A stretch of DNA of 64,000 bases, taken from NCBI RefSeq assembly GCF_030345695.1, contig NZ_JAUASV010000017.1, positions 1-64,000 of the forward strand, in the 5' to 3' direction. Position numbers and translations under genes: made by a program. Source of the DNA: Galbitalea sp. SE-J8. Its GTDB lineage: Bacteria; Actinomycetota; Actinomycetes; Actinomycetales; Microbacteriaceae. The notes under the pieces were generated by a model. The model did not search any database. It had not been told where the DNA came from and saw nothing but the letters and a program-made list of their open reading frames with translations. Position 1 is the first letter of the stretch. Each line of letters opens with the position of its first letter. Of the stretch, positions 16,847-62,597 are shown one piece after another.

Positions 16847-16948
16847 ATCACGGAAATGCAGGAGCGTGGCGCGGCGCGCGTGAAGCCCGCCCCGGTATCA
16901 CGCGAGCGTCTCTGCGGTGACGCTCGGGTGCTCCTGCATTTCCGTGAT
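16847..16948. repeat. 102-bp paired inverted repeat (ATCACGGAAATGCAGGAGC arms)
   Basis: The 19-nt arms at 16847-16865 and 16930-16948 are perfect reverse complements with a 64-nt spacer. The architecture (arm ending in GGAG, unrelated spacer, exact inverted arm beginning CTCC) matches the two other families in this window, with different arm sequences. It lies in a 404-bp gap between the RidA gene and the second PBP. Confidence 0.85.
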
Positions 16949-40892: not shown

Positions 40893-40977
40893 CCCGAAAA
40901 CGAAGGAGATCCGCGCCGGACGCGCCTTCATTGGCGGAGTTCGGGCCGCATCCGTATCGAACTCCTTCGTTTTCGGG
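40893..40977. repeat. 85-bp paired inverted repeat, family A copy 1
   Basis: The arms CCCGAAAACGAAGGAG (40893-40908) and CTCCTTCGTTTTCGGG (40962-40977) are perfect complements with a 53-nt spacer. The unit lies between two genes in the same orientation. A solo right arm follows at 41063. Apart from the bases next to the arms, its spacer is not conserved with the other copies. Confidence 0.93.
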
Positions 40978-42471: not shown

Positions 42472-42572
42472 TCCGAAAACGAAGGAGCCTGCGCGCGATC
42501 GGGGCCGAGTCGGCCGCCGTTCGCCGCATCCGAGCCGCTTCTCCTTCGTTTTCGGGCGCCTTCGTTTTCGGG
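42472..42572. repeat. 85-bp paired inverted repeat, family A copy 2, plus extra arm
   Basis: The left arm 42472-42487 (one mismatch at its first base) and the right arm 42541-42556 enclose 53 nt. A second, 14-nt right arm (CCTTCGTTTTCGGG, 42559-42572) follows in tandem. The unit lies between divergent genes, upstream of dacB and of the small minus-strand gene, so it cannot be a terminator for either. Confidence 0.92.
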
Positions 42573-43882: not shown

Positions 43883-43967
43883 CCCGAAAACGAAGGAGTT
43901 CGGGGCGTCCGGTGCGCGGATCCGGCCGTTTCGGCGCCGATCCGCTCGGATCTCCTTCGTTTTCGGG
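43883..43967. repeat. 85-bp paired inverted repeat, family A copy 3
   Basis: Arms at 43883-43898 and 43952-43967, spacer 53 nt. It starts 8 bp after the dacB stop, between convergent genes. The bases next to the arms (TTCGG on the left, CGGAT on the right) are those of copy 1 in reverse orientation. The spacer contains an internal hairpin GCGGATC/GATCCGC. Confidence 0.93.
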
Positions 43968-45502: not shown

Positions 45503-45851
45503 GGGCGGCATCCGTTCGCTCGGCGCCACCCGCCGGGGCGGCGGACGGCTGATGCCGCCGAGTCTGCTCCCCGCCCCCGACGATCGCGCGCCGCGCGCCG
45601 CACGCCGCACGCCGCACGCCGCGTCCCGCCGAGCGCGACCGGCCGAACGCGACCGGCCGAACTTGGTCGGCCGGCCGCGACCCCGCGACCCCGACGCGAC
45701 CCCGGCGCGGTTCCCCGAAAACGAAGGAGAACGGCATCCGTTCGGCCCGAAAACGCCCCCGACGGACGCCCGCTGCCCCGAACTCCTTCGTTTTCGGGAG
45801 AGCGGGAGGGCGGGAGGGCGCGAGCGCGGGAGGGCGGGAGGGCGCGCAGGG
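45503..45851. other. Gene-free interval with simple repeats and a family A element
   Basis: No credible gene is present. It holds short tandem words (GCCGCAC x3 near 45596-45620, then a duplicated GCGACCGGCCGAAC), the family A copy 4, and a GGGAGGGCG tract after it. It contains whatever promoter serves the minus-strand RidA gene; no -10 box stands out. Confidence 0.6.
45714..45798. repeat. 85-bp paired inverted repeat, family A copy 4
   Basis: Arms at 45714-45729 and 45783-45798, spacer 53 nt. The spacer itself contains CCCGAAAACG, the first ten bases of the arm, as a truncated third copy. The unit lies between two minus-strand genes. Confidence 0.93.
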
Positions 45852-55407: not shown

Positions 55408-55456
55408 GCCGGTCGCGCCGGCCCGGGTCGCGCTGGCGCGGTCTCGCTGTTCCGTC

Positions 55457-55472
55457 CCCGAAAACGAAGGAG
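55457..55472. repeat. Family A left arm without partner
   Basis: CCCGAAAACGAAGGAG is perfect, but the right arm expected 53 nt later is absent; a family B element starts at 55515 after GGTTCTC. In family A copy 5, GGTTCTC is immediately followed by CTTCGTTTTCGGG, so the family B element may have replaced or interrupted the right arm. Confidence 0.85.
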
Positions 55473-55514
55473 CGCGCGCTGTGGGCTCGGTGCGGGTTCT
55501 GTCGGTCGGTTCTC

Positions 55515-55612
55515 GTTCAGAACTCCTGTAGGTCGCGCACCGACCTGGCCGCGGCAGCTGTCGTTCCGCGGGCGGGCCGCGGCGTCGCGTCGATTCCACC
55601 GGAGTTCTGAAC
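55515..55612. repeat. 98-bp paired inverted repeat, family B copy 1
   Basis: Arms GTTCAGAACTCCTGT (55515-55529) and ACCGGAGTTCTGAAC (55598-55612), complementary except one position, with a 68-nt spacer. Same arm sequence as the copies at 61572 and 62512, which have 56-nt spacers. Confidence 0.88.
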
Positions 55613-55675
55613 GGCGCCGCGGCCGGCGCCGCGGGTGGCCCGCCGTTCGCGCTCCCGGGCGTGGTCGACGCTGCA

Positions 55676-55688
55676 GAAAACGAAGGAG
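55676..55688. repeat. Second orphan family A left arm
   Basis: GAAAACGAAGGAG matches 13 of the 16 arm bases. No right arm follows; family B copy 2 begins 24 bp later. Confidence 0.75.
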
Positions 55689-55712
55689 AACCGCGCGCTC
55701 ACCGTCTTCCGC

Positions 55713-55822
55713 GTTCAGAACTCCGGAGAAACGCGGGTCGGCGACTCGCGAGATCGGCACGAATCCGCGGAATCCACGGCGGCGGTCGGCCCCGTGACGT
55801 CAGCTTCTCCGGAGTTCTGCAC
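55713..55822. repeat. 110-bp paired inverted repeat, family B copy 2
   Basis: The left arm 55713-55730 starts GTTCAGAACTCCGGAGAA and the right arm 55805-55822 is its complement with one mismatch. The arms carry CCGGAG where other copies have CCTG. The right arm ends 36 bp before the stop codon of the MFS gene. Confidence 0.87.
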
Positions 55823-55857
55823 CGGGCGCCCGCGCTGAACGGGCGCCCCGGGTCGGG

Positions 55858-57485: not shown

Positions 57486-57570
57486 CCCGAAAACGAAGGA
57501 GAACCCGGGTGGTCGCGCGAGAAACGGGGTGGATACCGCGCCCTCGGCACGGTTCTCCTTCGTTTTCGGG
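57486..57570. repeat. 85-bp paired inverted repeat, family A copy 5
   Basis: Arms at 57486-57501 and 57555-57570, spacer 53 nt. Here pairing extends four bases inward (AACC with GGTT), giving 20-bp arms. The right arm abuts the ribH stop codon, so this copy lies directly at the 3' end of the riboflavin operon. Confidence 0.94.
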
Positions 57571-61571: not shown

Positions 61572-61657
61572 GTTCAGAACTCCTGTGCGGCTCGGCCGGA
61601 TCGGCCGATTCTGGGCTCGGGCGGGCGGCCGGGCTCTCCTCCACAGGAGTTCTGAAC
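61572..61657. repeat. 86-bp paired inverted repeat, family B copy 3
   Basis: Perfect 15-nt arms GTTCAGAACTCCTGT (61572-61586) and its complement (61643-61657) with a 56-nt spacer. It lies between the riboflavin promoter and the Vsr-like gene, 56 bp before that gene's ATG. Confidence 0.94.
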
Positions 61658-61713: not shown

Positions 61714-62526
61714 ATGAACGAGACCACGATCGCCACCCGCACCGAACTGCTCGCCGCCGGATGGACGGCGCGCAGCATCACCGAGGCCGTGCGTTCGGGC
61801 GCCATCGTCCGCCTGCGCAACGGCGTGTACGCCTCGGCCGGGTGCGACCCGAGCGTCGCACTCGCGGTGCGGGTGGGCGGCGTGCTCGGCTGCGCGAGCG
61901 CGCTCACCGCGCTCGGCGTCTGGACCCAGTCCCGCGGCCCGGTGCACGTGCAGCTCGACGGCCGGGCGTCGCGGATCCGCCGAGCTCCCCACGGCACGGT
62001 GCTGCACTGGCACACCGCACCGCTACCGGGCACGCGCGTGGCCGCCCACCCGATCGACGCGCTCGCCGACGCGTGCCACTGTCTCCCGTTCGAGTTCGCG
62101 GTCGCGAGCATCGACAGCGCGCTCAACCTCGGCCTCATCTCGCGCACGGACCTCGAGGTCTTGAGCGCCGCGCTCCCGCGCCGGCTCCGGCGCATCGTCG
62201 CTCGCGCGGACGGCCGGTGCATGTCGGGCACCGAGACGATCCTGCGGCTCGCCCTGGAGGACGCCGGAATCGCCTTCGTCCCGCAGGTGCGGATCCCGGG
62301 CGTCGGCACCGTCGACTTCGTCGTCGCCGGCCGGATCGTCATCGAGGTCGACAGCCACGCGTGGCACGACTCCGACGAGGCGACATCGCGGGACTACGAC
62401 CGCGACCTCGCGGCCGCTCGCGCGGGCTACATCGTGCTGCGGCTGCGCTACGAGCACGTCATGTTCCAGCTCGACGCCTCCATGGCCGCGGTGCGATCAC
62501 TCGTGGCTCTCGTTCAGAACTCCTGA
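61714..62526 (+). CDS. AbiEi-like N-domain plus Vsr-like/DUF559 nuclease-fold protein
   Basis: A 270-residue protein of a type that is common and multi-copy in actinobacteria. Residues 1-45 (TELLAAGWTARSITEAVRSGAIVRLRNGVY) are a winged helix like the AbiEi antitoxin N-terminus. The C-terminus has a PD-(D/E)xK/Vsr-like core: Glu in SGTETILRLAL, then VDFVVAGRIVIEVDSHAWHD and later YDRDLAAARAGYIVLRLRYEHV. Acidic residues are kept, so it could cut DNA. It is flanked on both sides by family B repeats, and its last codons (V-Q-N-S-stop) are made by the left arm of copy 4. Cellular role unknown. Confidence 0.8.
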   Translation: MNETTIATRTELLAAGWTARSITEAVRSGAIVRLRNGVYASAGCDPSVALAVRVGGVLGCASALTALGVWTQSRGPVHVQLDGRASRIRRAPHGTVLHWHTAPLPGTRVAAHPIDALADACHCLPFEFAVASIDSALNLGLISRTDLEVLSAALPRRLRRIVARADGRCMSGTETILRLALEDAGIAFVPQVRIPGVGTVDFVVAGRIVIEVDSHAWHDSDEATSRDYDRDLAAARAGYIVLRLRYEHVMFQLDASMAAVRSLVALVQNS

Positions 62527-62597
62527 CGAATCGGCCGCCTCGGGTCGCGAACCGGCCGAACCGCCCCGCCTGCGCCGATCGATCAGGAGTTCTGAAC
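62512..62597. repeat. 86-bp paired inverted repeat, family B copy 4
   Basis: Arms GTTCAGAACTCCTGA (62512-62526) and its exact complement (62583-62597), spacer 56 nt. The arms encode the last residues V-Q-N-S and the stop codon of the convergent genes on both sides, the Vsr-like gene on the plus strand and the HAD gene on the minus strand. Confidence 0.95.

Follow-up and report, generated by a model that had tools for sequence, protein, structure and literature searches.

Families of short dyad repeats and candidate partner nucleases of the AbiEi-fold/EDxHD type in a Microbacteriaceae-like actinobacterium

The DNA analysed here (the window, 64,000 nucleotides in full) is part of a high-GC actinobacterial genome of 3.33 Mb in 51 contigs, labelled G000 in the following. 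A convergent gap of 450 bp at 55408-55857 of this window, bounded on one side by a carboxymuconolactone-decarboxylase-type gene and on the other by an MFS gene of the sugar-transporter type, contains a composite of two families of short dyads, A and B (Table 1). Two left arms of family A lie in this gap, and each is followed by a complete family B dyad at a distance of 42 and 24 bp, respectively, in agreement with the initial annotation, which had placed the B elements 24-45 bp downstream. Arm matches in the window exceeded expectation for family A (15 versus 0.43 expected) as well as for family B (10 versus 2.1 expected). A gene for a nuclease, flanked by two further B dyads, is found 6 kb from the composite.

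Table 1 Dyads, orphan arms and nuclease genes in the window, with three paralogous nuclease genes elsewhere in G000 (last three rows).
Feature	Position	Strand	Remarks
Family C dyad, arms ATCACGGAAATGCAGGAGC	16847-16948	n/a	Within a larger dispersed repeat
Family A dyad, intact	40893-40977	n/a	
Family A dyad, intact	42472-42556	n/a	Followed by a second A right arm (1 mismatch) at 42557-42569
Family A dyad, intact	43883-43967	n/a	
Family A dyad, intact	45714-45798	n/a	
Orphan family A left arm CCCGAAAACGAAGGAG	55457-55472	+	13-base core exact; no right partner
Family B dyad, 98 bp, complete	55515-55612	n/a	
Orphan family A left arm	55673-55688	+	Exact core GAAAACGAAGGAG at 55676-55688; no right partner
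Family B dyad, 110 bp, complete	55713-55822	n/a	Right arm with 1 mismatch
Family A dyad, intact	57486-57570	n/a	Adjoins the stop of a ribH-like gene
Family B dyad, 86 bp	61572-61657	n/a	5' of the B nuclease gene
AbiEi-fold (wHTH) + EDxHD/Vsr-type nuclease fusion, 270 aa	61714-62526	+	Proposed cognate factor of family B
Family B dyad, 86 bp	62512-62597	n/a	Left arm overlaps the 3' end of the nuclease gene
A-linked nuclease paralog	C49:79866-80855		A dyads on both sides
C-linked nuclease paralog	C22:8787-9656		C dyads on both sides
D-linked nuclease paralog	C12:193834-194946		D dyads on both sides

That both A arms lack a right partner, also part of the initial annotation, was confirmed: at the expected offset of +66 only 3 of 13 bases match, and no match above chance was observed within 427 bp of either arm. 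These two are the sole exact A arms in G000 without any partner. The spacers 3' of the orphan arms do not carry the A-type phasing described below (z of -1.7 and +1.7; intact A copies have at least 2.4), and the arms therefore look like dead, decayed half-sites. A comparable arrangement was seen in another genome at locus L301 (G317:C1:1182133), where one flank of a nuclease gene has a full dyad and the other just a lone left arm.

It had been proposed from the same interval that B elements target A elements or sit inside them, with GGTTCTC at 55508-55514 as the junction. The heptamer is indeed present, with its CTC 14 bp short of the position at which an A right arm should begin; the arm spacing is 52 bp here and 66-67 bp in A elements. 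Since the junction is out of register and no A right half occurs beyond either B dyad, nesting and targeting are unsupported. In the DNA read around the matched arms, A/B contact was found once, in the focal gap, which is the only place with an A arm less than 1 kb from a B element; this comparison covered all exact A and B arms of G000 and part of the sites with one or two mismatches. All remaining B elements read lay at least 1 kb from any A arm. No clear A element was found at the 11 loci carrying the best relatives of the MFS gene (best E 0.17), and there was no second genome of the source genus among the relatives searched.

Two further origins of the composite were considered. Recombination between the CTCC/GGAG cores shared by the two families might have produced it, and against this stands the opposite orientation of these cores in A and B arms. 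Alternatively, one unit of an A half and a B dyad may have been duplicated in tandem. Four other B pairs are local duplicates with common flanks and both orphan arms are followed by the octamer CGCGCGCT, whereas the two focal B spacers are unlike each other (z 0) and the similarity of the units stems mainly from their arms; for the composite alone we regard duplication as a tenable explanation with somewhat less than even odds. The simpler account is that two B satellites of the B nuclease gene came to lie beside two decayed A half-sites, given that satellites of at least one family, A, gather around their nuclease gene (see below), and the A/B nesting is a minor local oddity.

In all, 49 paired copies of family A were collected from G000. 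Measured from GAAAACG to CGTTTTC, 42 of these are exactly 79 bp long, six are 80 bp and one is 180 bp. The arms are near-invariant and the spacers unrelated (mean identity 0.39; of 48 copies, clear relatedness was seen in just two pairs). In a column-wise profile A/T is highest at positions 15, 25, 35, 45, 55 and 65, the A/T power of the spacers is maximal at 10.25 bp (z 26), and the dyad centre is GC-rich. Elements are mostly intergenic and follow no gene-orientation rule; they are often near gene 3' ends and some occupy divergent gaps. More than half of the A copies (26/49) lie within 75 kb of the A nuclease gene (p 3e-24). A-type arms at C49:81737-81916 and C49:97504-97582, one pair of them spaced 167 bp, are located within predicted coding genes, and elements were also seen in an orthologous phosphomannose-isomerase-like gene region of genome G280. 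At C1:14158-14304 an A dyad has its right arm duplicated in tandem, with two extra copies 34 bp from each other behind it; positions 42541-42569 of the window are similar.

Inverted arms that are able to pair, frequently near gene 3' ends, could represent RNA hairpins that act as bidirectional terminators or mRNA stabilisers. Pairing across the A spacer in G000 was not above the control (0.37 within elements versus 0.41 between elements), which makes the phasing a property of double-stranded DNA, probably bent or wrapped. A 10-bp phase is not explained by RNA, elements occur in divergent gaps too, and no relevant covariance-model match in Rfam was found, making an RNA role very improbable. No internal palindrome was found in the A arms, the longest stem being 2 bp.

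Family B shares this design. Its 12 elements with distinct spacers measure 86 bp (five copies), 87, 98 (three copies), 108 (two copies) and 110 bp. The initial annotation had noted a step of 12 bp in these lengths and allowed that it might be chance; the stepping holds, and chance does not account for it (Rayleigh R 0.94 at 11.5 bp, a value reached in none of 20,000 simulations). The family C match in the window led to families C and D and later to F and G. Families A, B, C, D and F are all dyads with two inverted arms of about 12-19 bp and a fixed or helically stepped length. Family C (arms CGGAAATGCAGGAGC) is again helically stepped, at 81, 92/93 and 104 bp, and family D (arms CGGAAATTCAGGAGT) measures 80-81 and 91/92 bp, located on C12:134-263 kb with one copy on C17. 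The 10.25-bp phase and the GC-rich dyad centre of family A recur in B, D and F (weakly in B and F), and phasing in C is weak. The longest stem within an arm is 3 bp in D, 4 bp in B and 2 bp in C and F. An initial treatment of A and B as two unrelated families was rejected because both follow the same phase and dyad logic. About 1.0 of the 3.3 Mb of G000 was read, mainly around matches, which makes the copy numbers of C, D, F and G minimum values.

Other repeats were encountered alongside these families. Family G is a 68-bp, nearly palindromic element, GTGTGAGGACGATC, with GTGAGGACG repeated inside (C12:136649, C34:32146 and C34:152835), and no linked gene was found for it. A further dispersed repeat, GGTCGAGGAGCG / GGTCTCGAGACGC, with a broadly variable spacing of about 100-130 bp, is often near family C repeats and was seen on C12, C34, C45 and C49 of G000, for example at L237 and L250.

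The main 92-bp subfamily of C sits inside a larger mosaic repeat and is found in both orientations, and some C and B copies have internal sequence in common, which is not the case for A copies. Dispersed homologous copies of this kind, together with tandem groups and lengths in helical steps like those of Paramecium IES (PMC3464196), would suit classical MITEs of an ordinary transposon, the arms being terminal inverted repeats. Such elements should leave target-site duplications, and none was detected: the flanks of A, B and D equal the cross-element control. Near-invariant arms around unrelated A spacers are also unexpected for neutral fossils, and a search at arm-linked genes found only the AbiEi/EDxHD gene and no transposase. 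We therefore consider a MITE origin improbable.

In the roughly 1.0 Mb of G000 read, four paralogous nuclease genes are each flanked on both sides by their own, different dyad family (Table 1). A fifth, more distant paralog at C48:53282 was expected to carry family F dyads, and no dyad was found there by exact-arm search, which leaves families F and G with no gene assigned to them. Linkage is repeated in other genera. A set of 27 strong homologs, including two from G000, contains 14 with the same exact arm on both sides of the gene and 23 with at least one exact-arm dyad; allowing two mismatches brings in most of the others. In the weaker homolog set the same exact arm was present on both sides in 7 of 20 cases, including L319, a weak one. 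Such same-arm flanking was rare in the controls, with 0/17 at other loci, 1/83 among the genes of an element-rich region of G280 and 6/378 among G000 genes, the nuclease genes included. Gene calls were made with a simple codon-usage script.

Arm similarity also correlates with protein similarity across 28 loci (Mantel r 0.57, p 0.0002), a test that ignores shared descent and includes some neighbouring arms that are co-inherited. All 14 element-bearing genomes tested have the nuclease gene, and it was missing in 6 of the 10 genomes where the model found no match. In G006 and G021 the nuclease gene matches are strong and the A model finds no match, the dyads of G021 carrying other arms. Several paralogs (G000 C48, G006, G059 C5 and others) had no nearby dyads by exact-arm search.

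The protein itself combines two domains. Pfam profiles identified AbiEi_4, DUF559 and REase_MTES_1575, the last of these below its cut-off, and no NCBIfam model covers the whole protein. Its AlphaFold2 model (pLDDT 94.8, pTM 0.90) retrieved the AbiEi antitoxin 6y8q first in Foldseek, followed by the I-Bth0305I catalytic domain (3r3p) and 3hrl. The protein thus has an AbiEi-fold repressor domain and an EDxHD-type catalytic fold in which E174, D201, E211 and D227 are invariant acidic residues in 30 homologs. The REase_MTES_1575 domain is of Vsr type and has been described as part of an unrelated fusion (PMC3710099). Pairs of AbiEi monomers bind cooperatively to inverted repeats and bend the DNA (PMC7319586), which fits a dyad with a bendable spacer.

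A covariance model of the A arms (R1) was used on other genomes. It matched at least 97 of 398 genomes of the family, in at least 40 genera, and in the wider order the matches listed were all from genomes of this family. Exact A elements also occur in metagenome-assembled genomes labelled Glaciihabitans sp. and Actinomycetales bacterium, placing G000 with the Microbacteriaceae. Each genome has its own version of the arm, and both arms change together. Applied without refitting to 47 elements from 17 other genomes, the A/T profile of G000 gave a Stouffer Z of 17.4, with 46 of 47 positive, and 28 dyads with other than A-type arms that flank nuclease genes in other genomes are phased too (z 5-6 at 9.5-10.25 bp). 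L155 (G059:C1:69481-69565) is almost fully palindromic, with 34-bp arms and a 15-bp loop, which the other G059 copies read are not.

Positions are conserved as well. Synteny links the dense A region of G000 (C49:60-124 kb) to a dense region of G280 (C1:1768-1886 kb), and between genera elements stand at the same ends of orthologous genes above expectation (Fisher p 3e-4). In the AdoHcyase/RDD gene gap, G280, G390 and G008 each have an element, with three different arms. Concerted arm change at old sites needs a co-evolving factor, or conversion, to explain it. A role at the replication terminus or in a macrodomain was rejected, the dense A region being the mtrA-accD-add-deoA region that contains the A nuclease gene, and elements being spread genome-wide in G317.

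These conserved positions with concerted arm change, the mostly intergenic location without a gene-orientation rule and a phasing typical of wrapped DNA would also be expected if a nucleoid-type protein wrapped the dyads for chromosome organisation or gene insulation, or if the dyads were regulatory sites, with the nuclease genes as mere neighbours. Left unexplained would be the pairing of one paralog with each dyad family, the matching arms on both sides of the gene and the correlation between arm and protein, and we judge this architecture-only explanation unlikely.

We favour the reading, with a probability of roughly 0.7, that A and B are two of several short dyad families and that each family is targeted by an AbiEi-fold/EDxHD nuclease of its own, whose satellite population it probably is. 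The computed dyad architecture, phasing, length classes, conserved positions, gene linkage and co-variation of arm and protein underlie it, and from these we infer binding, bending, catalysis, copying and mobility by the nuclease on the dyads. In the most probable scheme, a nuclease is specific for its own arms and assembles on the dyad a complex in which the DNA is looped or wrapped. Two nuclease monomers would bind the inverted arms through their winged helices, as AbiEi does on its operator, and the 45-80 bp between the arms would be bent or wrapped into a tight loop that brings the two nuclease domains together. Such looping or wrapping would account for A/T every ~10.25 bp and for the helically stepped lengths. 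Occasional nicking or cutting may then spread new dyads, often near the nuclease gene, or convert existing ones; within one genome the arms would be kept the same, changing along with the protein, and the spacers would be free to drift. In this proposal arm uniformity results from the action of the nuclease, whether through copying or through conversion. The conservation of A-site positions between genera (noted above) counts against the proposal and leaves current movement of A conjectural.

Of the known systems, REPIN/RAYT is the closest in organisation. REPINs are inverted pairs of conserved 16-mers with a spacing of 71 bp in group GI (Bertels and Rainey 2011, PMC3116915). Like the dyads, they combine inverted pairs at fixed spacing with a less conserved spacer, and a genome holds several groups of them, every group close to an enzyme gene of its own. 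Membership of that system was rejected, since the Y1 (HUH) transposase PF01797 was found in 0 of 30 genomes with a positive control in E. coli. Furthermore, REP arms are palindromic (a 7-bp stem in E. coli REP) whereas the dyad arms have stems of 2-4 bp, the spacers of G000 family A show the phasing of double-stranded DNA rather than hairpin pairing, and the enzyme is an AbiEi + EDxHD nuclease. E. coli REP/BIME elements are likewise intergenic, dispersed inverted modules in mosaic clusters, as family C is here, but A, C and F arms have no REP-type palindrome, the spacers are phased and a nuclease is linked.

With the AbiEi antitoxin-repressor of type IV toxin-antitoxin systems (6y8q) the nuclease protein has its N-terminal fold in common; here that fold is joined to a nuclease domain and would face many genomic sites instead of one operator, with arms 60-80 bp rather than a few bp apart. 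Its C-terminal domain resembles I-Bth0305I (3r3p) and Vsr-type endonucleases by sequence profile and fold. Unlike I-Bth0305I, the protein is not in an intron, has an AbiEi domain and is linked to dispersed dyads. Paramecium IES show a length periodicity of ~10.2 bp, explained by DNA looping between their ends (PMC3464196); they are eukaryotic, excised by a domesticated piggyBac-type transposase and have no conserved 16-bp arms. In the open-access literature we found no relevant paper containing the searched arm strings and none describing such a system.

This looks like a partnership of nuclease and repeat of a new kind. The wider proposition, that AbiEi-fold/EDxHD nucleases maintain and spread wrapped dyad families in Microbacteriaceae-like bacteria, with arms and enzyme co-evolving, and that this is an independent, REPIN/RAYT-like invention working through the bending of double-stranded DNA, we hold to be an even bet. 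If true, it would place a second, mechanistically unrelated enzyme class beside the best-known bacterial case of a repeat population with a dedicated nuclease. Most of the 28 paralogs have a different arm, and the proteins and their sites would form a natural paired series for reading DNA recognition by AbiEi-type domains. Selection for sequence-specific DNA wrapping without sequence conservation would become testable, and annotators would gain an explanation for part of the unexplained intergenic repeats in this Microbacteriaceae-like family.
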